NCBI GenBank assembly: GCA_029834535.1
Contig: JAQMWT010000050.1
Location: forward strand, 62,001-126,000
Direction: 5' to 3'
Source of the DNA: Chrysophaeum taylorii
Lineage: Eukaryota; Sar; Pelagophyceae; Pelagomonadales; Pelagomonadaceae
DNA: 64,000 bases
Each line of letters begins with the position of its first letter. The stretch's first letter is position 1. Below are positions 1 to 51,399 of the stretch, piece after piece. The translations under genes and the position numbers were made by a program. Below the pieces are notes generated by a model. That model did not search any database. It saw only the letters and a list, made by a program, of their open reading frames with translations, and had not been told where the DNA came from.

Positions 1-480
1 GTGGCCGTGCGACGGGTCGAGGTTGCGAAGACTTTAAGCTCGCGATCAAAGTCAGCATGCCGTTGGTTGTCAGGGAGTCGAAAACTCGACTGTAAAGAGC
101 GAGGCGTCGTCTTCCGACCCAACCTAGTCAGCCGAAAAGAACTCCGACGCCTCGTCTCCGGGAAAAAAAAGGCCGCGGTCATGCGCGCGTTGTCAGCATC
201 GACAACATCGTTTCGACGGGGCGTGAGAATGGCGCGCTGAAAGAGCCGCCGCGGGTCGTGGAAATAGTCTGCGAGGTCGCCGTAGACGGCTTGGAGGATC
301 ACTGTCTGGCTCTCGCGCCTACCTGATCCTTACTCTCGCGCCTACCTGATCCTTACCCTAAATCGACAGGGACATCCTTCATGCTCCCCACACACACCCC
401 CCCCTCTTAGCAGTCGACATTTAAAGACAGACAGACAGACAAACAAACAAACAAACAAACATCTGTCGATTAGTAGTTAA
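1..480 (+). mobile_element. Partial non-autonomous retroelement copy (block A joined to the 3-prime terminus)
   Basis: The first ~360 bases (block A) recur almost identically at 1109-1465 and, inverted, at about 50470-50780. Block A is joined directly to the family 3-prime terminus: a C-rich stretch, a TCGACATTTAAAGACAGACA motif, short GACA and AAAC runs, and a tail containing CGATTAGTAG near 470. The RT-coding part found after block A in the next copy is missing, so this is an internally deleted derivative, cut by the window edge. A 79-codon ORF at 1-240 lies in block A but has no recognisable domain and starts with GTG, so I do not call it a gene. Confidence 0.7.
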
Positions 481-489
481 GACAAGTGC

Positions 490-830
490 AGGCCAGTAAG
501 TTCACCTAGTCCCAATCTCTAACCCCAGTAAGTTCACCTTGTCCCAGTAAGTTCACCTGGTCAGTTAGTTCACCTAGTCCAAATCTCTAACCCCAGTAAG
601 TTCGGCGTAAACCCACTCGTGCTCACGCCCACTCCTTTGAGCTCGTCGCTCTCACCCCCGCCAATCCAAGCTGCTTTGATCCGCACGCGCCGCCAACCCT
701 TGAGTTTACTCTAAAACCCCAGTAAGTTCACCTGGTCCCAGTAAGTTCACCTGGTCACTCAGTTCACCTAGTCCCAATCTCCAACCCCAGTAAGTTCACC
801 TGGTCCCAGTAAGTTCACCTACAGTGCGCG
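490..830 (+). repeat. Direct-repeat array of AGTAAGTTCACCT-type units
   Basis: AGTAAGTTC occurs at about 496, 529, 546, 593, 721, 740, 789 and 808, with diverged units between, mostly followed by ACCTGGTCC or ACCTAGTCC. Spacing alternates between about 17-19 and 33 bp. The same array occurs inverted at 51040-51310, at the head of the other large copy, so it belongs to the element 5-prime region. Each unit contains GTAAGT, a consensus 5-prime splice site. Tandem 5-prime monomers act as promoters in some LINEs; whether that applies here is inference. Confidence 0.8.
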
Positions 831-1477
831 TGTAGACGCCGGGAGGGGGCTTATCGGTATTGCGCAGCACGTGTGGGGTAGGGTGGAGTCGTCGACTCAG
901 AAGAGCATATCCTCGGGGTTGCCGATCGACAGAGAGCCACGTAGAGCTGGACGTGACAGAAGACGGGCTTGGGCAAGAGGACGCCGACCTCGCGGGGCGT
1001 CTGGCCCTGGCTCTTGTTGATCGTTTGGCGTCGGCGGGCCTTAAGGGATACAGGTTGGAGGAGCCTCGGTGACACGACACGATCGATCATGTATCTGGTA
1101 CCGTTGCAGTGGCCGTGCGACGGGTCAAGGTTGCGAAGACTTTAAGCTCGCGATCAAAGTCAGCATCCCGTTGGTTGTCAGGGAGTCGAAAACTCGACTG
1201 TAAAGAGCGAGGCGTCGTCTTCCGACCCAACCTAGTCAGCCGAAAAGAACTCCGACGCCTCGTCTCCGGGAAAAAAAGGCCGCGGTCATGCGCGCGTTGT
1301 CAGCATCGACAACATCGTTTCGACGGGGCGTGAGAATGGCGCGCTGAAAGAGCCGCCGCGGCTCGTGGAAATAGTCTGCGAGGTCGCCGTAGACGGCTTG
1401 GAGGATCACTGTCTGGCTCTCGCGCCTACCTGATCCTTACTCTCGCGCCTACCTGATCCTTACCCTAAATCGAGGGA

Positions 1478-1869
1478 CAGTCAGACACTACGGCACCGTC
1501 GACGGCCTCGTCTTTGGTGCCTTCGGTGAGGCCAGCGCGGCGTGCCACGCTCTCGCCCAAACATGCGCAGAGCGCATCGCTGCGCGAACCTGGGTGACAA
1601 GCGGCTGCGCCAACTTCACAGAGGCAAAGGCGGCCCAAACTCGCCGCATCTACCGTGAGTGGGGGATCGCCAACGCATTAGGCCGGGCTCGCTGTGCCCT
1701 CACCGCCCTCACCCATGTCGCCGCCTCGGGGAACCCCGCCCAGGCCGCCCGATCCCAGCAGGACGTCGCCCTTCGTCGCACATACGTCCGGCGGCAGCAT
1801 GCGTACGACCTACGGGCGGGGCCCGTCCTCTCTTCGCCTGCCCCACGCCTCGGCGATGACCCCGACTAG
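1478..1869 (+). pseudogene. C-terminal fragment of the retroelement RT polyprotein
   Basis: One frame is open from about 1478 to the stop at 1867-1869. It matches, with only scattered substitutions, the C-terminal segment at 48291-47881 on the minus strand (shared motifs FGAFGEASAACH, RRIYREWGIANALG, GPVLSSPAPRLGDDP). The catalytic RT domain is absent, so this is a remnant. In the larger copy this segment lies downstream of the RT domain and could be its thumb or an element-specific C-terminal region. No start codon of its own is expected. Confidence 0.65.
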
Positions 1870-2057
1870 GTCCCGCGTACTTATCTCCGCCCGTCAGGCA
1901 CATCCCTCCTACCCCACAAACCCACCCACATCCTTCATGCTCCCCACACACACCCCCCCCTCTTAGCAGTCGACATTTAAAGACAGACAGACAGACAAAC
2001 AAACAAACAAACAAACATCTGTCGATTAGTAGTTAAGACTCCGTCGAATTTCTAGGA

Positions 2058-4499
2058 TTATGAGTCTCTGTCGTGGCCTAGTCTGTCAAGGTCCCGGACG
2101 CAGGCCCGCACGCGGGGCGCGATGTCGTCCTTCCAGGCCCGGTACTCGCTCCGCAAGACGCGGTACGAGTCGCCGGCCTTGGCGACGGCCAAGGCCTCGA
2201 GCCATGCCCGCTTCTGGCGCTGCCACGCCGTGAGCCGTGCCTCGAGCGCACGAATCAAAGCCCGCCTCGCACGCCGCCGCCGGGCGGCCGACACCCTCGC
2301 CGCGACGGCGGCCTCGACGGCAGCCTCGATCACCTCCTTGGCCGGCGGCTCCTCTCGGAAATCTTCCTTCTCGACCTGCGTGCTCGCCGTCGCGACCGCG
2401 GGCGCGGACGGAGCCGTCGTCGCGACCGAGGTGGCCTCCTCCTCGACGTCGAGGAGCTGCCGCCGCGCCCAGTCTGGTTTTCGGTCGGGGTAGAGCAGCG
2501 CGTCCGAGAGGCGTCGCGGCGCCGGCCGCTTCTTGGTCGTCGTCGCGGGGGGCGGCCGACGAGTCGCTATTTTCCGCCGCGCTGCCTCCGAAAACTCGGG
2601 GAGCGGCGGGGGGTCGCGCCTGGCGGCCTTGCGCCGCGCGACCTCGGCGCGCCAGCGCTGGGCGTACTTGGCCGCGAGCTCCATGTCGCGCACGGCGCGC
2701 TTGGCGCGCGCGGCGCGCTGCCTCGAGTCCCTCGCGGCGCGCGAGGCGTGCGAGGCCGCGAGGAACCGCGCGCAGCCCTCGCGCTGCAGCGCGACGCGGC
2801 GCGCCTCGATGGCGCGGCGGGCCTCGTCCCGCTTGCGCGCGCGCAGCCCGACGTAGCCTTTCAGCGCTGCCCAGCACTTTGCCTCGAGCGCGCGCGCCCA
2901 GTGGTGCAGCGCGAGCGCGAACCGCGAGCGATAACGCCGCGCGTCCTCGACCTCGCCCGCCCAGGCCGCGAGCGCCCGCCGCGCTCGAGACGCGTCCCGC
3001 GCGGCGTCGAGGTCGCGGATGCGCCGCACCAGAGCCGCGTGACCGCGCCACGTCGAGAGCGCCCGTCGCGCGGTTTCCGCCTCGCGTCGCGCGCGAGCCG
3101 ACCGAAACAGCTCGTCGACGAGCGCGCGGCCCCGACACCCCTCGACCCACGCGGCGACCGCCCGGCGCGTCGCGACGTGCGCGAACACGCGCGAAACGCG
3201 CCGGGCTCCGGCGCGTCGCCGCCATCGCCGGATCATCCGCGCCGCCGCGGCGAGGCGCGCCTCCTCGCGCCGCGCGACCGCTTCCGCGCGCAGCCGCCGG
3301 AACGCGCGTCGAACAAGCGCCGCCCGCGCGGCGCCGCGGGCTTCTCTTTCCGCGCGCCGCAGCGCCGCGAACCCGAGCCGCAGCCTCCGCGCGGCGATCG
3401 CTCCTCGCGTCTCGTCCGCTTCTCTCCGGAGCGCGACCCACGCCCGCGACGCCAGCCGGCCGTCGCGGTGCGTCACCGCCGCGCGAAACCGCGTCGCTTC
3501 CTCGGCAGCCTCGACCAGTCGCGCCACCGCCGCGAACCGCTCCTCGTCGCGCCGAGCCTCCTCGGCATCGACGCCTGCCTGAGACGACGACACCCGAGCA
3601 TCCGGAGCATCCTCTTGTTCGGGCGTCTCGCGCCGAGCCTCCTCGGCATCGACGCCCGCCTGCGACGACGTTACCGGAGCATCCTTGGACGACGACACCG
3701 GGGCATCCTCATCATCCTCCTCCTCCTCTGGTTCGGGCGTCTCCCCCCGAGCCTCCTCGGGATCGACGGAACCACGCGCCGGAGGATCCGGAGCATCCTC
3801 TATAGGAGGCGGCGGCGGCGGCGGCGGCACCTCGTGAAGACGCGATCGTGGCGCGGTAAGCGGCGACCCTTCGCGCGTCGTCGACCACGGCGCCTCGCGG
3901 CCCCAAGCGTCGTCGTCGTCGTCGTCGTCGTCTTTTGGTTGCGGCTCAGCACGGGGTTGCTCCGCTTCGAGCGTCGCCTGGGCCAGAGCAGCGGCTTCGG
4001 GCGTCGTCGACGCCGGCTCGGGCGTTGGCTTTACGACGGCGGCCATATCGTCGTCGTCGTCGTCGTCGTCCAACAGCGGCGGGCGCGCATAAGCTTCACG
4101 CAGCGGCGGCGTCTCTCCTCCCGGCACCAATGAAGGTGGCCGCAGCTCTTCGAGCCGTACCCATTCTCCAGATAATTCCGGTAACGCCGGTGCGTCCTCT
4201 GGCGCATCGCGGTGCGACGCTTCGAGGTCCTCTTCGAAGACAGGCGGCGGCTCGTGCCCTTGGAGCGTTTCATCGGCGGCGGCGCCGAGATCGTCGTTGT
4301 GCCACGACACGAGGGCCTGTTGCGTGTTCCACCACCACGCAGTAGTCTCCTCCGAAAGCTTCGGCGGCCAGGAGTTTTGCCCCGATGGCAGAGGTGCTGG
4401 CGTGGGTAGTTCCGTGTCGAGGGACGTGAGGTCGTAGACGCCGTCGGCTAGCTCGAGGACGACGAGATTTGGGCGGTCGTCCATGCAACAACAACTCAT
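2058..4499 (-). CDS. SFI1-like centrin-binding repeat protein
   Basis: An 813-residue protein. The first ~330 residues are low complexity and acidic, with several Asp runs and Pro/Glu segments. From about 330 to 650 is an Arg/Ala-rich helical array in which a Trp or Leu-x2-Trp recurs about every 30 residues (RRAVAAWVEGC, RRALSTWRGHA, RRALAAWAGEV, ALHHWARAL). This is the SFI1 centrin-binding pattern, and such proteins form filaments at spindle pole bodies, centrioles and basal bodies. The ATG at 4499 is chosen because the open frame upstream offers only a TTG. The next gene upstream on this strand stops at 4520, 20 bp away. An alternative is a generic coiled-coil protein, but the spaced Trp residues favour SFI1. 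Confidence 0.7.
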   Translation of the reverse strand: MSCCCMDDRPNLVVLELADGVYDLTSLDTELPTPAPLPSGQNSWPPKLSEETTAWWWNTQQALVSWHNDDLGAAADETLQGHEPPPVFEEDLEASHRDAPEDAPALPELSGEWVRLEELRPPSLVPGGETPPLREAYARPPLLDDDDDDDDMAAVVKPTPEPASTTPEAAALAQATLEAEQPRAEPQPKDDDDDDDDAWGREAPWSTTREGSPLTAPRSRLHEVPPPPPPPPIEDAPDPPARGSVDPEEARGETPEPEEEEDDEDAPVSSSKDAPVTSSQAGVDAEEARRETPEQEDAPDARVSSSQAGVDAEEARRDEERFAAVARLVEAAEEATRFRAAVTHRDGRLASRAWVALRREADETRGAIAARRLRLGFAALRRAEREARGAARAALVRRAFRRLRAEAVARREEARLAAAARMIRRWRRRAGARRVSRVFAHVATRRAVAAWVEGCRGRALVDELFRSARARREAETARRALSTWRGHAALVRRIRDLDAARDASRARRALAAWAGEVEDARRYRSRFALALHHWARALEAKCWAALKGYVGLRARKRDEARRAIEARRVALQREGCARFLAASHASRAARDSRQRAARAKRAVRDMELAAKYAQRWRAEVARRKAARRDPPPLPEFSEAARRKIATRRPPPATTTKKRPAPRRLSDALLYPDRKPDWARRQLLDVEEEATSVATTAPSAPAVATASTQVEKEDFREEPPAKEVIEAAVEAAVAARVSAARRRRARRALIRALEARLTAWQRQKRAWLEALAVAKAGDSYRVLRSEYRAWKDDIAPRVRACVRDLDRLGHDRDS

Positions 4500-6049: not shown

Positions 6050-6698
6050 CCCCCCGCCCCAACACAACGGAAGTTTTTTTTTCGTTCTGATGATGAAATG
6101 ATACACGATACTAGGCGATATTCCCGACACAGACAGACTACTTATCTCCGCCCGTCAGGCACATCCCTCATACCCCACAAACCCACCCACATCCTTCATG
6201 CTCCCCACACACACCCCCCTCTTAGCAGTCGACATTTAAAGACAGACACCCACACCGCCCCCCCCCCTCTTAGCAGTCGACATTTAAAGACAGACAGAGA
6301 GCAGAGTCTCTCTCTCTCTATAGCTCCTCCGGAGAGTAGTGCCGATGCGACCGACCATATAAAGTCGGCGTAATAAGTAGTACTAAGTGCGATGTGTAAC
6401 AGGCAGAGAGACAGACAGACGATGACACATTAGGAGCGAGGGTGATGGGGTGGCCGCGCAGTGCCGCGGCCGGGCGGCGGTCTAATTTTTTCCGGCGCGT
6501 CGGAAATGGAGAGGTCGCTTGCGACCCAGGGTGTTTTATTTTTTGTCGCAACGGCGGCGGCGGCGGCGGCGGCGAGGAAAGTTTCGGGGGCAGAGCGCCA
6601 GGTAGTTGTAGGTCGTTGGTCCCCGGCGGCGTATAATTTATTCTTGTCAGGGGCATCGTCGTCGTCGTCGTCGACATTGTCGTCGTCGTCGGTGGCAT
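6050..6698. other. Intergenic region with retroelement 3-prime fragments and simple repeats
   Basis: Holds two retroelement 3-prime fragments (about 6138-6297), a CT run near 6307-6318, a short GACA run near 6410-6421 and GGC- and GTC-rich triplet runs at 6550-6690. The triplet runs lie just past the stop of the minus-strand gene at 6699. No gene seen. Confidence 0.6.
6138..6297 (+). mobile_element. Solo 3-prime-end fragments of the retroelement family
   Basis: From about 6138 the sequence matches the 3-prime UTR of the copy ending at 2040 (TACTTATCTCCGCCCGTCAG, the CACACACCCCCC stretch, then GTCGACATTTAAAGACAGAC). A second, shorter tandem piece repeats the last ~45 bases at 6255-6297. This is a 5-prime-truncated insertion with no coding part, as expected for target-primed reverse transcription. 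It lies between the 5-prime end of the DHH/CBS gene and the 3-prime end of the glycosyltransferase-like gene. Confidence 0.7.
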
Positions 6699-28094: not shown

Positions 28095-31000
28095 ATGGCG
28101 ATAATGTCCAAGATGCTGTTGACGCTCTACGTTCTTGTTGTCCGGGTTGCTGCTGCTGGTGCTCAGTGCGTTGTAGAATCATCACCACCAGGGGTGCCGG
28201 TGGAAGACAGTTCGATCCAGAATCCGAGCGTCGAGCGCATCATTACACGCGACACGAACTCGGAGCTCGTGGACCTGGGTCATCCCGGGCACGCTTGGGC
28301 CGCCGCGAGCCAATCAAACTGCCCACACGACTGGCCTGGGTTGGAAATGTGGGAAGACCAAGGCTTTGGCGTCGGCACCGGCCAGGACGTCCAGCTCGCG
28401 GAAAACAAGCGCATCATCATCGCGTGCAACTCGATCGGCGACGACGAGCAGTTTGGCGTGATCCGTATCCCGTCGACAAGCGAGCTAATTATCGCCGACG
28501 AGCCGATCTCATTAAACGTCCGAGGCATCCGCGTCTACGGCGCGCTGCGCGCGGGCAGCGAGACGTGTCGCCTCAACGCGCAGATCAGCATCACGCTCCG
28601 CGGAAATCGGCCGTCGAGCATCTCCGACACCCAAAACACCTGGTTCAAGGGCATCGACGTCAACACCGGCACTATTGATATTCACGCGGCCGAGTACTAC
28701 CAGACCTGGAGTCGACTCGCCGTCGCCGCGCGCGCGGGCGACAACGTGCTCTTCCTCCAGGACAAGGTGAATTGGGAGGCCGGGATGTCGATCGTGCTGA
28801 CCACGACGCAACTCAAGGACGCGCGCGACTTCCACCAGAACGAAGTGTTGCAGGTCGTCTCCGTCAAGGGCGCCGGCCACCTCGGCACGAACGTGACGGC
28901 AGCGTACGTGACGCCGTCGCTCAAGTACGACCACTGGGCCGGCGACGAGTACCAGCCCGAAGTCGGTTTGCTGTCGCGCCGCTTCAAGATCCAAGGCGAT
29001 TCAGCGTCCGAGCCATCGGACACGAGCCCGCTCGGCTGCTCGGATGGAAAGTACGCGTCGTACCCGTGCGAGAACCACAACACCGGATTCGGCGGACACG
29101 TTATCGTCCAAAACCCGGGCGCCGTCGCGAAGATTTCGGGCGTCGAGTTTTACCGGATGGGTCAGACGAACTTCGAAGGCCGCTACCCGATCCACTGGCA
29201 TCTCACCGGCGACGCGCCCGACTCGTATGTCCAGGATTCGTCCTTTCACCGCTCCTTCTTCAAATGTGTCACGCTCCACGGCGCTAACAAGGTTCGCGTC
29301 TCCCGGAACGTTGCCTTCGTGAGTACTCTGCGCGAATGTGTGTGTTATGCAAGGGGGGGTGAGAGACCACAACCAACCACCGCCGCGCAGGATATCATCG
29401 GGCACTGCGTCTATCTCGAGGACGGCGTCGAAAAGAACAACGTCATCGAGTACAACATGGCCGCACACGTCCATCCCATGGGCAAACCGCCGGGTGCCGG
29501 CGGCAGTTCACAGGGCCTCGATTACATCTACGACTCGGAAACGCTCTCGACAGCGGCCGACGCGACTGCGAGCGGTTTCTACATCTCGAATGCGTACAAC
29601 AGGGTTCGCGGCAACGCGGCCGTCGGCGGCTACGCGGGGTATCAGTTCCCCATCTTCGAAGAGCCTCTCGGACTGCACCGCGACGCGCCGATCTACCCGC
29701 GGATGTCGCAAACGCTCGAGTTCGACGGCAATTCGTGTCGCTCGTCCGGTTTTTGGTGGGGCCACGCGGGCTGCATATACGTCGGCGGCGAGTTCCGGCA
29801 CTTGAACGAGAACTCCCGCCTGCCGATGCGTTACAACCCAGGCCGCACGATCAACGGGTGGCGGTCGTGCGAGAAGGACGACCGCGGGTCGCCGTGGTGT
29901 GACCGCTGGGACCAAGCCGGCTGCAGCGGCACATACCCTGTAGCTTGTTTCGCTTACCTCGTCGTTACCAATTTCAAAGCGAGCTTGACCTCGCTGGGAC
30001 TCATGAACTGGGGCAACCGCGCCCGCATGCACAAGATCGAAGTGCACGACTTCGTCGGTGGACCAGCCGCAGAGCTTTTTGGCGATAACGACGTGGACCA
30101 AATCCTCGTTACGTGTCGCACCGAGAATTTCCCGTCCGAGCCGACGCACTGCGGTACGTCGACGGTTGAGCACGAGGGCCATCAGGCTTTCGTTGATTGC
30201 GAACGGTGGGACAAGCGCGCCTGGGAACAGCAAACAAAGGTCGGTCGTCACCAGTGTCGAGGAGCGCGCCGGAGAATTTTTGAATCAATTTCGCGCGCTG
30301 ATCGGATGTGACTGAAGCCTCCTAGTCATCATCACTCTCGGTTCTCTTCGCAGGTGATCACGTGGTACGACACCAATATGAACACGGTTGTGACGAACGC
30401 GACTGTGCGATCCTGCGACCCGACGGCCTGGGAGAATTGCAAATATAGCTGCGAGCAGTCGTCCGTCTTCCAATTGACAGCCCATTCCGACCAATTCTTG
30501 CCCGAGTTCATGTCGCTGACTGCCGACTTTCGGTTCGAGAAGGATACCACGATCCGTGACCACGTCGTTGAATTCTCAACACGATCAGAGTCGATCTCGG
30601 GCCGATTTTCCGGATGGCTCGACGTCGACGGCACGGCCTGCCTTTCCGATAAAGGACCGATGGTCATCGGCAGCAATAACGATGCCGGCCAATGGTGGCG
30701 GCTCGACGAAGACTGCGAAACAATCGGTCTCAACGACTTGATGTGGTGTTGCCAAGCCAAGGGCCGCTGGCTCGCGAGCTTCAGCGCCGAATGGGACTCG
30801 GCTTTGACTTCGCAGCTCGCCGGGGAAGGCGGCACGCGGTGTAACAACGACTTCGCGGGCGGATCGCCGTGCGATCGAGTCGGCTTCCTCTCCAAATTCG
30901 GCGATACTTCCCTTGCCACACAAGCCGTCAAGATCATGGAACGTGCCGAAGTCGTCGGCGCCGTGCCGGGCTCGACCTCACCCGAGGGATTTGGGTGGTA

Positions 31001-33184
31001 TTTGTGAGATTGCAACTCGTTGTTGTTGTGTGCTTAGTTGGTATTGTCGCCAACAACTACTGGAACGTAGGTGGCTGGACAAGGGTGCGCCGAGGCTGCT
31101 CACGCTCAAGCTGCTCCAGGTCCACCACGACGCGCGGCTCGTGCTAGCGATCACGTACCCGAAGGGCACAACGTTCACCATAACGATGGAGGCGGTGAGC
31201 TGGTGCAACCCGGAGCGGGACGGGCTCTGCGAAATCACGTACGACGAAGCGGACTCGCTCGCCGAGTTGCTCGAGCCGGCAGGCAGTAAGAAGTACTATG
31301 TCAAAGATCACTCTGATGCGTCGACTCTGTTCTTGCGCGTCGTCCAGCGCCGCGATCGCCGTCTCGGCAAGGAGGACGCTCAGGACGAGTGGGACGATAA
31401 CTTCCAAGTGCCGCTATTCACGAACAACTATCTCGAACGACTCCACGGACCAGACATGGGCCTGCCATACCGCTTTGGCGATCCCCAAATTCACATCAAT
31501 GCCAACTGCCCAGGCACTGGTGCCTACTGCCAAGGTGGCGCGCAGCCGCAGTACATTCCGCAACTGCTGTGGTCGGGGCGCCCGACGCCGCGTCCGACGT
31601 CGCGCCCGACGGTTGATAGGGGCGATTGTGTCAAGATCGTCGACGGGGCTCCAGATAACGAGATTGACAGGTGCCCAAACAGTATGTTTTCGGACACGAG
31701 CGACGCCGACGTCCTGGTCGTCGATCCTGACGAGGCCGTCGCGGGCATTCGCTGCTGCGATGATGAAGGCAACGGTTACAGCTACTGCGAGGCGAACTGC
31801 CAGTTGGTGGCGTTCCAACAAGCCAAGGCGACGTGCGAAAGCCACTCACAACGTCTGTGCACTCCCCAAGAACTCCTCGACGGAAAGACAGATGGAACCG
31901 GTTGCCTCTACGACTCGTTGCACGTTTGGACCAGCGAGAGAACGGATTGTCCGAAGCGAAGCTGCGCGACGATCGTCGACGGCTACGCTGCCAACGAGAG
32001 GGAAAATATATGTCCCAACACGCCGTTCTCGGACGTCATGGACCCCGACGTCTTGCACGTTGCCTCGGACACGAAGGTTGCGGGCGTCCGCTGCTGCGAC
32101 GACGCGGGTGGAGGGAAGAGCATGTGCGAAACGGGCTGCGAAGTCACGGGTGCGTGCGTGTCTCTCGTCGCGTTGACGCCGTCTCACCACCTTCGTTTCC
32201 AGATCTCCTCACCGCGAACGCTCGATGCGAAGCAGAAGGCATGCGATTGTGCACGACGGCCGAGCTCCTCTCGGGACAAGCGGCAGGCACCGGTTGCAAG
32301 TGAGCGATCACTTCTTCTTCTTCTTCTTTGTGAAATAAGACGATCGAATCTCCGCAGTTACGACAGCGTTCACGTGTGGAGCTCCGATGCCGTTGACGAC
32401 TGCGAGTGCAAAGCCATCGTCGACGGAAACAAGGACAACGAAGAAACCGCGACGTGCGCGAACACTCCGTTCTCTGACGCCGCTGACCCGGACGTAATGT
32501 ACGTCGGAGCCAACGAAGCGTTGGCTGGCGTCCGTTGCTGCGACGAGCACGGTGGCGCAGCGAGTCCCTGTGACGCGGCGTGCGAGCTCGTCGACTTCGC
32601 TACGGCGCAAGCAAAGTGCGATGCCATCGACATGAGGCTCTGCACGACAGCAGAGATTCTATCGTTGCAGACGGTAGGTACTGGCTGTCTATACGATTTC
32701 ATGCACGTCTGGGCTGCCGAATCGATGTGTTCGCCGCCAACGCCACGACCCTCGTTTAGCCCCACGCTTCGCCCGAGTGCCAAACCGACGTCCGATCTCG
32801 ACGCGGTATGTCTCGGCAACTGGCAGCAATGTGGCCACGCGCAAGGACTCTCGGAATGCTGCGCATCGGATGGGTACGAGTGTTATCGCAGGCACGCGCT
32901 GTACAGTCAGTGCCGCCCGAGCTGTCCGGATGAAACGTGGTCGTGTTGGTACGATCCTCCCCGAGGCGAATGCAGCCCAGATTGGGGCCGCTGCGGCGCG
33001 GAACACGGCTTGCCAGACGCGTGCTGCCACGGCTATTTCCAATGCTACCGCCAAAACGAAAATTGGTCCCAGTGCCGCGATTCGTGCCCCGACGACCCCA
33101 CGTGCGTCGTCGCCGCCGCCAAATCACCCTTAACATAATCTTCTTCCATATAGGTGGGACTGCAACAACAACAACAACTCATGA
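28095..33184 (+). CDS. Secreted G8/parallel-beta-helix protein with Cys-rich repeats and CBM1-like modules, seven exons
   Basis: Exons 28095-29318, 29391-30239, 30354-31003, 31071-32149, 32203-32299, 32358-33101 and 33154-33184 join in phase to about 1557 residues. Signal peptide (LLTLYVLVVRVAAAGAQ). Residues ~50-230 are a G8-type domain and ~280-650 a right-handed beta-helix region as in CEMIP and PKHD1L1 (HWHLTGDAPDSYVQDSSFHR, VTLHGANKVRVSRNVAF). Three ~95-residue Cys-rich repeats follow (IVDG..DNE, VAGIRCCDDEG, RLCTPQELL, TGCLYDSLHVW). Two CBM1-like modules end the protein (WGRCGAEHGLPDACC, NENWSQC). CEMIP binds hyaluronan and CBM1 binds cellulose or chitin, so an extracellular or cell-wall polysaccharide role is likely. 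Intron 1 (72 bp) has no in-frame stop, so retention would be silent to an ORF finder. Confidence 0.85.
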
Positions 33185-46410: not shown

Positions 46411-46560
46411 ATGTCTGTCTTTAAATGTCGACTGCTAAGAGGGGGGGGTGTGTGTGGGGAGCATGAAGGATGCGGGTGGGTTTGTGGGGTAGGAGGGATG
46501 TGCCTGACGGGCGGAGATAAGTACGCGGGACCTAGTCGGGGTCATCGCCGAGGCGTGGGG
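46411..46560 (-). mobile_element. Solo 3-prime-end fragment of the retroelement, abutting the ROK gene
   Basis: Read on the minus strand from 46560, this starts in the last codons of the retroelement C-terminal ORF (matching LGDDPD and its stop), runs through the 3-prime UTR and ends in TAAAGACAGACA near 46411. It is a 5-prime-truncated insertion in minus orientation. Its truncation point lies directly against the ATG of the ROK kinase at 46561. On the plus strand it is open and in frame with the kinase, adding 50 artefactual codons to a longest-ORF call. Confidence 0.75.
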
Positions 46561-47541: not shown

Positions 47542-47629
47542 CTACCAATTGTTTGTTTTATTAACGCCGAGACTCGGCGCCCTTTTTCTGCGTTTTCGTT
47601 TCTTTTCTACTAATCGGCAGATGTTTGTT

Positions 47630-47767
<138 letters not shown>

Positions 47768-47880
47768 TAAAAGGTCGACTGCTAAGAGGGGGGTGTGTGT
47801 GTGGTGCATGAAGGATGTGGGTGGTTTTGTGGGGTAGGAGGGATGTGCCTGACGGGCGTAGCTAGGTATGCGGGACCTAC

Positions 47881-50420
47881 CTAGTTGGGGTCATCGCCGA
47901 GTCGTGGGGCAGGCGAAGAGAGGACGGGCCCCGCCCGTGGGTCGTACGCACGCTGCCGCCGGACGTATGTGCGACGAAGGGTGACGTCCTGGTGGGATCG
48001 GGCGACCTGGGTGAAGCTCCCCGAGGCGGCGACATGGGTGAGGGCGGTGAGGGCACAGCGAGCCCGGCCTAATGCGTTGGCGATCCCCCACTCACGGTAG
48101 ATGCGGCGAGTTTGGGCCGCCTTTGCCTCTGTGAAGCTGGCGCAGCCGCTTGACACCCAGGTTCGCGCACCGATGTGCTCTGCGCATGTTTGGGCGAGGG
48201 TGTGGCACGCTGCGCTGGCCTCACCGAAGGCACCGAAGACGAGGCCGGCGACGGTGCCGTAGCTACGTAGCCGCTGTTCGACAGGGCCCAAGAAGCCAGG
48301 CGGTGGTGCTGTGCCCGGCTGGGGGATGATGGCGTCGATGCCGCGGGCGTGAGCGAGGTATTCGGAGTGGACTTGCGCTGCGCGCCGATCGACAGGCGAG
48401 GGAGGGATGGAGGGCGTGGGCGGTGTATAACGAACCCCAAGCGAGAGTTTTCAGGTCGTAGAGTTGTTCCTTGTTGTCGAGCGTGGTGAGGATGTCTGGG
48501 ACGACTTGGCGTCGGGCGAGATTGCCTCGGTACCGGCCGTAGAGGCGCGTGCGAATGGTAGGGGCGACGACGTCAGCAAAGATGCAGAAAACCTCGGACA
48601 GGGCTGAGATGCCGGCCTCTTTGACGATGCAGAGGACGCACTCGAGAAGGCCGTCGTGCCAGGTGGTCCGCGCTCCTCCGCGGTTGACAAGGTTGGCCTG
48701 CGTGAGAAGCACCTTGCCGTGAGCGTCGAGAACGACGTCAGTGCTCAGAATGCGAGTGCCCACGAGGCCCGAACAAGCTGGAGAGGGGTAGCCAAAGTAC
48801 TGGGCACACATCTCGGCCCAGCAGCGGTTGGGGATTTGAAGGGAGGAGCTGGGCCACGAGCTGATGAACGTGGTCGAGAAGCGATCCCATGAGGACGCCG
48901 CTACTCGAAGTGCATCGGTGATGGGAAGGGTGGCCGCAAGGCGCTGGAGTGCAGTGGCCCAAGCTGTCTCGCGCTGGGAGGTTAGAGCACGCTGGAGTTG
49001 GGGTATGAGCACGAGTGTCGAGATGGTGGGGTCGACGAGGACGCCCATGGAGACGAATTCGAGGGAGAGAGGACCGTCGACGAGATGAACGTTGGCGGGG
49101 TCGCCGGAACCAGCGCCGCCGCGGGAAGCCAGCGTGGTACGGAGATCAGCCCGAAGTCCGTCCCACGCAGTCTCAAGTGCTCGCCCCAGGCGGCAACCGG
49201 ATGCGAGGAGGTGGTGCCAACGGTGCAACTCGTTACCTGTGCGAAAAGAAGTGGCACCCAGGACCGAGGCGAGGCGGGGGAGGTAGCCAGGGACCTCCAC
49301 GGCACCCGTAGGATCGCGAAGGTCGACGAGGTGTGGGAGGGCCTGGGCCGCCGTGCCAACAAAGGCGGCGGGGCTGAGGTCGGCGCAGGAGCGAATGCCG
49401 CCACCCCCACTTCGAGCAGGAAGGCAGAGGCGTTGGAGGACGATGCCGGTGGAGTCAAAAACCTGACGCGGCTCAGCGCCAAGTGCTGTGGCGACGAAGC
49501 TGAGGACGGCAACGTCGAAGCGGCGGAGCGCGCTCAAGGCATTGGTGGGGTAGCAGTGTTGCACGAGGTAGTCCATGCGCGGGGCGATGCAGTAGCGGCC
49601 CAACGAGTACATGCAGTGGAGGGAGACGTTCTGGAGCTTGGTGCGAATACGGCTCATGTAGCTCACTTGAGCGTCAACCTCGCGTTGCAAGGAAGCTTCG
49701 ACATAAGCATCTCCGGCGTGTCCGGGGGAGCCGATGGGCACACCGTAGATTACGAGGCCGTCGGCGACAACGGGGATACCAGCTCTTGAAGAGTGCGCGT
49801 GCCGTCCTGCGCAACTTGGACGTGGTCTTGAACATCGGGGTGATCGAGAAGACCCATGCCAAGTGCCGGACAGAACGCCACGCGCTTGTCGAGGCGGAGC
49901 TCCTCGCCGCTAGCTTGGATGTCGCGGGCGTACTGCAGGAGGGCGTCGACAACCTCACGAGGGGAACCAGAGATGACGCCGTCGTCCATGCCAAATCGTG
50001 CGTAGCCGGCACAGGAACGTAAGCGGGTGTCAAGGGCCTGTGCGGCGTCATGCGTTGCCAGACAGAACGCCGGTGGATAGGTGGGGTCGCCTTGCTGGCC
50101 GCCTTCTTGAGAGTCGAAGGGGCGAGGCCGGTGGGGCCACGGAGGGCCACCCAGGATGCCGGCCGTAATTGCTTGAACACGAAGTGGCCAAAGGCACGCA
50201 GCTTAGCGTTGGCGTGGTTTGCGAGTTTGTCCACGACGGTCCGGCGATTGAGCTCTTTGAAGGCGTTGCGTTTGTCCAGCTTGATGATGACCTGGTCGGG
50301 GTACTACTCCGCGTGGGTGCGGACGCCAAAGACGAGGCGCGATGGGCCGCCCTTGACCCCGACGGCAACGTTGATCGGGTACAGTGCCTCGGAGATCTCG
50401 GAGTGGAGGCTACGCACAAG
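47881..50420 (-). pseudogene. Reverse transcriptase of the retroelement, frameshifted
   Basis: RT motifs are split over several minus frames. LDKRNAFKELNRR (near 50260) matches the LDxxNAFN motif of algal RT-like proteins. PTYPPAFCL (near 50065) follows a GDP motif. FGMDDGVISGS (near 49990) is the catalytic xxDD motif, with Gly where Tyr or Phe is usual. The long segment 49741-48263 (MYSLGRYCIAPRMDYLVQHC region) is the thumb/C-terminal part, and 48291-47881 is the conserved end also present at 1478-1869. At least three frame changes (near 50090, 49785 and 48300) imply an inactive copy. No endonuclease domain is recognised, and the 5-prime part of the ORF is missing. Confidence 0.75.
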
Positions 50421-51039
50421 GCACCGTCTGTCTTTAAAGGTCGACTGCTAAGAGGGGGGTGTGTGGGTGGCGCACGGCGACCTCGCAGACTATTTCCACG
50501 ACCCGCGGCGGCTCTTTTAGCCAGCGCGCCATTCTCACGCCCCGTCGAAACGATGTCGTCGATGCTGACAACGCGCGCATGACCGCGGCCTTTTTTTCCC
50601 GGAGACGAGGCGTCGGAGTTCTTTTCGGCCGACTAGGTTGGGTCGGAAGACGACGCCTCGCTCTCAAGAGTCGAGTTTTGAACTCCCTGACAACCAACGG
50701 CATGCTGACTTTGATCGCGAGCTTAAAGTCTTCGCAATCTCGACCCGTTGCATGGCCACTGCAACGGTACCAGATACATGATCGATCGTGTCCTGTCACC
50801 GAGGCTCCTCCAACCTGTATCCCTCAAGCCCCACCGACGCCAAACGATCAACAAGAGCCAGAGGCAGACGCCCCGCAAGGTCGGCGTCCTCTTGCCCAAG
50901 CCTGTCTTCTGCCACGTCCAGCTCTACGTGGCTCTCTGTCGATCGGCAACCCCGAGGATATCCTCTTCTGAGTCGACGACTCCACCCTAACCCACACGTG
51001 CTGCGCAATACCGATAAGCACCCTCCCGGCGTCTACACG

Positions 51040-51310
51040 CGCACGGTAGGTGAACTTACTGGGACCTGGTGAACTTACTGGGACCAGGTGAACATACTGG
51101 GGTTTTCAGAGTAAAGTTTTTAGAGTAAACTCAAAGGTTGGCGGCGCGTGCGGATCAAAGCAGCTTAGATTGGCGGAGGCGAGAGCGACGAGCTCGAAGG
51201 AGTGGGTGTGAGCTAGGTGAACTTACTGACCAGGTGAACTTATATGAAACTTACTGGGATTAGGTGAACTTACTGGGGTTAGAGATTGGGACTAGGTGAA
51301 CTTACTGGCC
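51040..51310 (-). repeat. Inverted copy of the 5-prime direct-repeat array
   Basis: At least six GGTGAACTTACT units (reverse complement of AGTAAGTTCACC) with spacing like the array at 490-830, including the same interspersed unique piece (AAGCAGCTTAGATTGGCGGA near 51156, matching inverted sequence near 665). Confidence 0.8.
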
Positions 51311-51399
51311 TGCACTTGTCTCGTTTAAAGACGGTTCTTTTTTGCCCCTTTTTTTGTCGTTGCAAGAGCAGCAAGAGAATTATTAATTATTCCCGGACA

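Follow-up and report, generated by a model that had tools for sequence, protein, structure and literature searches.

Two places in a 64,000-nucleotide stretch of the Chrysophaeum taylorii genome (C50:62001-126000, in a 70.8-Mb assembly of 697 contigs; this whole stretch is called the window below) carry the same series of blocks: an array of direct repeats (R), then blocks B and A, then either the 3' end of a reverse transcriptase (RT) sequence or directly a shared terminus. Is this a single retroelement family with an unusual layout and its own deletion derivatives, as a first-pass annotation made from the letters had proposed, or are unrelated elements superimposed? We favour the second answer, with a probability of roughly 0.92: R-B-A, a microsatellite and the terminal CATCTG form a ~1-kb non-autonomous Helitron, and the RT sequence belongs to an unrelated retrotransposon, resembling the long interspersed nuclear elements (LINEs), that is nested in it.

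Both clusters were divided into array R, B, A, the RT 3' end, the 3' untranslated region (UTR) and the tail T, and both strands were re-read. The (ACAG/ACAA)n-CATCTG unit with R-B-A is a Helitron that had been read on its reverse strand, and the 'RT end' represents the 3' part of a separate LINE-like retrotransposon inserted in the microsatellite of the Helitron. In the following map the strand given for Helitron parts is the Helitron's own orientation (here and below, C-numbers are contigs and L-numbers are loci; TRF is Tandem Repeats Finder).

1..371, minus strand: remainder of an upstream Helitron copy whose R and B precede the window (in L017), consisting of its block A, which shares 99% identity with that of the following copy, and its first bases on the microsatellite side.
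372..427, plus strand: LINE 3'-end stub (~56 bp) in the microsatellite of the upstream Helitron, starting at position 4250 of the 4305 of the LINE reference and ending TTTAAAGA.
428..482, minus strand: (ACAG)n(ACAA)n microsatellite and Helitron 5' terminus, reverse complement TCTTAACTACTAATCGACAGATG.
483..2038, minus strand: whole non-autonomous Helitron with a LINE insertion, 3' end CTTG at 483, 5' end at 2038.
483..832, minus strand: array R, tandem ~19-bp repeats at the Helitron 3' end (TRF rows 493-603 and 718-820; block match).
833..1107, minus strand: block B, decayed helicase C-terminus (tblastn frame -1, E 9e-37).
1108..1470, minus strand: block A, made up of a decayed helicase segment and, past the deletion junction, of the 5' segment of the Helitron; it contains a 10-11 bp stem.
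1488..1983, plus strand: 5'-truncated LINE, its last ~496 bp (end of the reading frame, 3' UTR, TTTAAAGA end) in the microsatellite, from LINE reference position 3810, with flanks GGGACAGTCAGACA / CAGACAGACA.
1984..2038, minus strand: rest of the microsatellite and Helitron 5' terminus.
6139..6289, plus strand: a stacked pair of LINE 3' stubs in a ACACAGACAGAC site that belongs to no Helitron.
46418..46545, minus strand: LINE 3' stub outside any Helitron, with CAGACAT on both sides.
47602..51318, plus strand: second-cluster Helitron with LINE insertions, the third copy in the window; its outermost 5' bases (~47602-47607) have diverged, and that end is approximate.
47607..47763, plus strand: Helitron 5' terminus together with an (ACAG)n microsatellite that is expanded, with 36 copies according to TRF.
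47764..50429, minus strand: longer LINE copy with a broken frame, starting at LINE reference position 1636.
50430..50470, minus strand: LINE 3'-end stub of the second cluster.
50474..50760, plus strand: block A of the second-cluster copy, cut at position 283 of 363 (block match).
50761..51035, plus strand: block B of the second-cluster copy, 96% identical to B of the first cluster.
51036..51318, plus strand: array R of the second-cluster copy (block match).

The order R-B-A first described holds in both clusters (483-1470 read on the plus strand, 51318-50474 on the minus strand), with RT-derived sequence or the terminus directly behind it. Each cluster also contains the internal terminus reported earlier. 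What was called an 'internal 3-prime terminus' is a LINE stub followed by a Helitron 5' end in the first cluster, and a LINE stub alone in the second. At the left edge of the window the Helitron 3' end at 483 abuts the 5' end of the previous copy at 482, a head-to-tail arrangement.

We took 20 further loci by place (L017-L036); most of the loci examined here were chosen for their R-B-A content. In both clusters and these 20 loci we observed from one to about eight R-B-A units per locus, in direct and sometimes in inverted order. Pattern searches (up to two mismatches for the R start and the CATCTG terminus, one for the A-end motif, with the reversed pattern as control) found the R-start motif at 3,043 genome places, the CATCTG terminus at 2,797 and the A-end motif at 2,585, and each control gave 0. 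These parts keep their spacing: on contigs C1-C11 an exact A end lies 882-1072 bp downstream on the same strand for 65 out of 98 exact R starts, compared with 18 that have one upstream on that strand, as expected of tandem units, and a single one that has it on the opposite strand. At ~1.03 kb each, the short units account for about 4% of the assembly.

In its own orientation the unit has a Helitron layout: TC[C/T]TAACTACTAATCGACAGATG, (TTTG/TCTG)n, ~26 bp of the parent's 5' region, A and B, R, and finally CTTG. In reverse complement its first bases are TCC/TCTTAACTACTAATCGACAGATG and its last are ...GGCCTGCACTTG, with a T behind them. Among the loci examined the ends are constant and the flanks variable: the 5' end is TC in 67 of 75 distinct ends and the 3' end is CTTG in 63 of 65. 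A T adjoins the Helitron 3' end (an A beside CAAGTGC) in 27 out of 28 distinct flanks that lie outside the family, and in such flanks the 15 bp adjoining the 3' end have 29% GC, as against 50% further out.

Insertion can be followed directly at some sites. For example, a complete R-B-A-microsatellite-CATCTG unit splits the reading frame of a LINE in L025, and the same LINE stretch is unsplit in L037, L011, L014 and L015, so that the joined L025 flanks equal the empty site with nothing gained or lost. Out of 27 flank pairs tested, four have true empty sites (L025, L033, L034 and L028), all without target duplication; three of the other 23 matched the family itself only, and 20 had no match. Further copies and target-site duplications were both things that the first-pass annotation had proposed to look for: other copies with the terminus exist in thousands, and the duplications are absent at these four sites. 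On two contigs (L010 and L025) the Helitron interrupts the LINE frame at an identical position, so a LINE with a Helitron in it may have been copied or duplicated.

Blocks A and B had been described as having no recognizable coding or RNA identity. The coding part of that description does not hold: on the opposite strand the A and B of the window read FPGDEASEFFSAD..., TINKSQGQT...VLLPKPVF...QLYVALCR, with stops and frameshifts, and tblastn matches them to the C-terminus of a PIF1-type Helitron helicase with E values of 9e-37 (first cluster) and 2e-32 (second cluster), so that they are a decayed helicase C-terminus. The RNA part agrees with our search, in which the window had no Rfam match at gathering scores, and an RNA identity for A and B was dropped on that ground.

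The near-identity of A and B between copies had been taken to suggest a cis-acting role. Copies of B share a mean pairwise identity of 96% (lowest 71%, n = 65), and variant cells fall 48, 88 and 80 times at codon positions 1, 2 and 3 of its in-frame part (65 copies), with no third-codon excess. This near-identity is best read as youth, because one deletion derivative with a single junction, found at 2,256 places, has been amplified recently. A cis role is conceivable in view of a hairpin in block A. The stem (window 1196-1270, 10-11 bp) has at least 8-9 of 11 positions paired in 22 to 24 of 29 distinct short copies (8 paired in two copies, 9 in five, 10 in 14, 11 in three, and 0-1 in five). 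Its fold has a z-score of -2.93 in the window and +0.51 in L033 (7876-7949), where, in that one relative compared, the stem is absent. The block-A stem may have taken over a cis role.

The source of the helicase remains is indicated by relatives that encode Rep and helicase (RepHel). The Rep family PF14214 has 39 matches above the cut-off among the 40 listed for this genome, and none in 14 control genomes. Loci L040-L043 contain the Rep domain (PF14214 with E 8e-59 in L042), and the L042 protein matches the Helraiser transposase structure with E 2.6e-151, with GLPHAH and VKYIHKYVYKG (the HAH and Y..Y stretches) aligned; we take the catalytic residues to be the HUH motif in the former and the two tyrosines in the latter. 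The 3' half of a RepHel element is found in L033 (PIF1 PF05970, 4e-41; Pif1_2B PF21530, 6e-19; Helraiser, 2.7e-75). Its helicase frame continues through sequences homologous to B and A, and beyond the helicase 21 bp are identical to the 3' end of the short unit; the Rep part of this copy, on C650, is among the PF14214 matches listed. By exact motif positions the Rep domain is followed after 3,193 bp on C3 and 3,196 bp on C6 by the 3' end of the short element; on C650 the distance, obtained by subtraction, is 3,203 bp.

The 5' side leads to the same elements. The junction is undeleted at six genome places (C3, C6, C105, C268, C394 and C557) and deleted at 2,256, and in five of the six a Rep domain lies 2,815-3,082 bp downstream on the same strand. 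On C105 a Rep-bearing span of 6,781 bp lies between exact head-to-tail junctions, which gives both ends by pattern position. The letters of a parental 5' side were read in L044 (the C3 RepHel element): ATCGACAGATG, a TTTG/TCTG tract with a LINE stub, 26 bp equal to the outer end of block A, and then new sequence.

The short form descends by deletion from a Helitron that encodes Rep and helicase. A ~6.8-kb RepHel Helitron would have given rise to it by an internal deletion, and the parent's Rep-helicase may then have amplified it to ~2,300-3,000 copies. Insertion takes place in front of a T and without target duplication. From these data we infer a single origin, present activity and mobilisation of the short element in trans. 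The short array-B-A-terminus form predicted earlier is therefore real, at ~1 kb instead of about 0.9 kb, in thousands of copies and beside RT sequence, and what falls away, given its Helitron ends and RepHel relatives, is its descent from a retroelement.

Could the element be of the Helentron type (a HINE, such as DINE-1 or the oyster Cg_HINE) and not a classic Helitron? Of the alternatives this one survives best, although we consider it improbable. The architecture is that given for HINEs in PMC7492417: a short 5' module with a GTCY-like tetranucleotide microsatellite, tandem repeats and a short 3' module. However, no subterminal inverted repeat links the two ends of L025 (one intact copy tested), the insertions are flanked N^T and not T^T as the Helentron rule of insertion into TT demands (T on the 5' side, taken as the complement of the direct +1 base, in 5 of 35 flanks, on the 3' side in 27 of 28), and the protein match is to Helraiser, which is a classic Helitron and was the sole such transposase in the PDB search.

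The guest itself has an open reading frame of 1,396 aa in L037 and ends TTTAAAGA. By eye, it contains AFNE, QQGDPTYPP and MDDG, which we take to be RT motifs, and VPD..YDIK, which marks a candidate restriction-like endonuclease; its C-terminal part has no Pfam match. A pattern search of IMG/VR for its relatives returned three matches, none of them a relative. The loci used hold 51 LINE 3' ends, of which 48 are usable (three are cut by the end of a locus). With a constant 3' end, these copies start anywhere from 1308 to 4268 of 4305 (a few starts are counted twice, and the start in L010 is the interruption by the Helitron, not a truncation). Such 5' truncation is general for microsatellite-specific retrotransposons of the non-long terminal repeat (non-LTR) class.

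CAGACA or CAAACA directly follows the LINE 3' end in 35 of 48 cases, and a CATCTG terminus lies within 220 bp in 29 of 48; in loci that came from the RT search and have LINE 3' ends (L010-L012, L014-L016 and L037) the terminus is present in four of seven. Genome-wide there are 3,371 LINE ends (two mismatches), and the exact LINE end followed by N(0-30) and CATCTG occurs 396 times (control 0); as these patterns are not equally strict, 396 is a minimum from which no share follows. The stubs of the window that lie in the ACACAGACAGAC site and between CAGACAT copies indicate that the LINE favours CAGACA-like sites, which the Helitron microsatellite supplies densely. LINE RNA would be copied onto CAGACA/CAAACA sites, often with 5' truncation and probably primed on the repeat, and the (ACAG/ACAA)n tract of the Helitron would act as a landing pad, so that LINE pieces would accumulate between block A and the Helitron 5' terminus. 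In L021 (C6, 2166-4648) at least six LINE 3' stubs are stacked head to tail, as if each had been inserted in the (ACAG)n tail of its predecessor.

These data bear on the single retroelement family, in which the LINE itself would begin with R-B-A and would give rise by deletion to the short form, mobilised by its RT. R-B-A is indeed often directly upstream of RT sequence, and the terminus T comes after both. We nevertheless regard this idea as very unlikely: the opposite strand of A and B holds the remains of a helicase, the same ends are found on elements that encode Rep and helicase, none of the four empty sites shows a target duplication, LINE copies without R-B-A exist (window 6139-6289 and 46545-46418, and elsewhere), and the 17 LINE 3' ends (of 48) that follow an A end have 14 different start points. 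A and B are thus no part of the RT element, and because the LINE is a separate insertion in the Helitron, an array-B-A-terminus unit is a Helitron, empty or with a LINE stub, and not a deletion derivative of the LINE.

The same varied LINE starts joined to a constant A end could suggest chimeric retrocopies, in which the LINE RT jumps from its own template to an R-B-A RNA at the 3' end of the latter and fuses R-B-A to a 5'-truncated LINE; template switching is known for human L1 with U6. There is little to recommend this, as R-B-A units with an uninterrupted microsatellite and a CATCTG end exist, CATCTG also follows units that contain a LINE, and a LINE-free R-B-A copy is cleanly inserted without duplication (L025 compared with L037 and others).

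Tandem strings of the Helitron are frequent, and some are long: the exact head-to-tail joint (the end of one unit to the start of the next) occurs at 526 genome places, with, for example, eight R starts in a row ~1 kb apart on C11 and nine exact joints over 32-45 kb on C20. A satellite or centromeric tandem repeat hit by the LINE, which such strings and the ~1.03-kb tandem units in many contigs might recall, is the least credible explanation, because the 20 by-place loci have from one to about eight units with varied flanks, empty sites exist, and the units carry helicase remains and have RepHel relatives with the same ends. Zepp-like centromere clusters were also considered, and dropped in view of the thousands of ends, the varied flanks and the empty sites.

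For a Helitron, such strings could arise in two ways: copying could continue beyond the 3' end (read-through), or a new copy could insert at the boundary of an old one. The 3' hairpin of Helraiser is described as a terminator whose loss leads to read-through (PMC4778049), and tandem Helitrons have been ascribed to a bypassed stop (PMC4067079). Read-through appears favoured here, since the short unit has no 3' hairpin: the copying machinery may run past the 3' end and produce head-to-tail arrays, helped by the absence of the hairpin. In L020 (C226, 1305-8413) a Helitron-LINE cluster forms a near-perfect inverted pair, with the same LINE starts on both arms; it is a palindrome or an assembly fold-back.

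Several observations weigh against the interpretation as a Helitron with a nested LINE. Two classic Helitron hallmarks are missing: the 3' terminus is CTTG and not CTRR, and there is no stable 3' hairpin (198 out of 200 shuffles of the last 60 nt fold at least as well; over 38 distinct ends the hairpin is absent, with a lowest fold of -3.7 kcal/mol). Eight of the 75 distinct 5' ends are not TC, the second-cluster copy of the window being among these, and an A precedes the element in only 14 of 35 flanks, so that a strict A^T insertion rule fails. At two of the empty sites (L034 and L028) the joined flanks are one base off at the joint (A, compared with G in most empty copies), with further small differences away from it. 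On the parental side, the relative in L033 is only 80-84% identical to the short element, the RepHel parents were read in part, the undeleted junction on C557 has no Rep match among those listed, and the exact parental 5' end is placed by the pattern positions on C105; in L044, the only parental 5' end read in letters, the inner 11 bp match the short unit and the outermost ~12 bp do not. As for the LINE, RVT_1 reaches only E 0.004 (17.3 bits, with a cut-off of 29.6) for a fragment, the whole frame has no Pfam match at E 0.1, the PDB search gave none at E 1 for the protein and one unrelated match at E 2 for the fragment, and an AlphaFold model of the 492-aa LINE frame of the window, made without an alignment, had a pLDDT (predicted local distance difference test) of 36 and was discarded. 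Since the loci were mostly picked for R-B-A, the shares of LINE ends given above are not genome-wide.

A broader scenario is conceivable, which we put forward tentatively and think somewhat doubtful as a whole. The LINE may be specialised on the Helitron as its main safe harbour in a two-tier parasitism, with the Helitron multiplying the landing pads thousands-fold and LINE 3' ends adding (ACAG)n pads of their own, on which stubs stack. The Helitron, its 3' stop lost or replaced by R, might then spread as strings that carry LINE pieces along, and the block-A stem might serve in cis. In the main, nested reading, what appeared to be a modular retroelement turns into a clear example of a transposon that exploits a second one, and simple-repeat 'tails' common to two elements can evidently mimic one family. 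With six undeleted junctions, 2,256 deleted ones and 526 tandem joints, 3' stopping and hairpin loss in a Helitron can be counted directly. The simple-repeat LINE nested in a Helitron microsatellite is the part most worth following; the hairpin-less, tandem-prone Helitron is also of interest.

Elsewhere in the window we found eukaryote-type domains (CEMIP, G8, formin and CCDC53). Reading frames with G8 and CEMIP domains are located at 28095-33138, and a frame of 1,280 aa at 54451-58293 matches the WASH-complex subunit CCDC53 and the formin FH2 domain alike.

Among known systems, Helraiser (bat Helibat1; PMC4778049) shares with the family here the Rep HUH motif and two tyrosines, the PIF1 helicase, the 5'-TC, the T on the 3' side and the lack of target duplication. 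CTTG-3' ends are given in the same paper for some Helraiser insertions with a deleted hairpin or right terminal sequence (RTS), and for maize. Unlike Helraiser, the present family has no 3' hairpin, has CTTG as the rule, a 5' flank that is not strictly A, an R array reaching to the 3' end and many head-to-tail joints. HINE, DINE-1 and Cg_HINE (PMC4067079, PMC7492417) are likewise gene-less and very abundant, with a microsatellite near one end and tandem repeats, and both papers mention tandem strings for Helitrons. In contrast to HINEs, no subterminal inverted repeats or 3' palindrome were found here, and the gene-bearing relatives are Helitron-type by protein match.

The guest has parallels too. 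The Xenopus LINE Tx1L has a DNA transposon, Tx1D, as its usual target, whereas the target here is the Helitron microsatellite together with loose CAGACA sites, not a unique sequence. Insertion into a simple repeat is shared with Togen, on (TG)n, and with some HERO families, which are microsatellite-specific non-LTR elements with a restriction-like endonuclease (PMC4640811); here, unlike in these, the repeat is (ACAG/ACAA)n and is borne by a Helitron, and the endonuclease is a candidate only. RTE elements that generate microsatellites have been described in Lepidoptera (PMC2887409) and play no part in our argument. A literature search, mostly without subscription papers, found no title on a LINE targeting a Helitron microsatellite, which does not imply that none exists. 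The components are of known kinds: RepHel Helitrons, their deletion derivatives, tandem Helitrons (PMC4067079) and microsatellite-specific LINEs (PMC4640811). Among the features tested, the family departs from a classic Helitron in that it ends with CTTG, lacks a 3' hairpin and is loose in its 5' flank.

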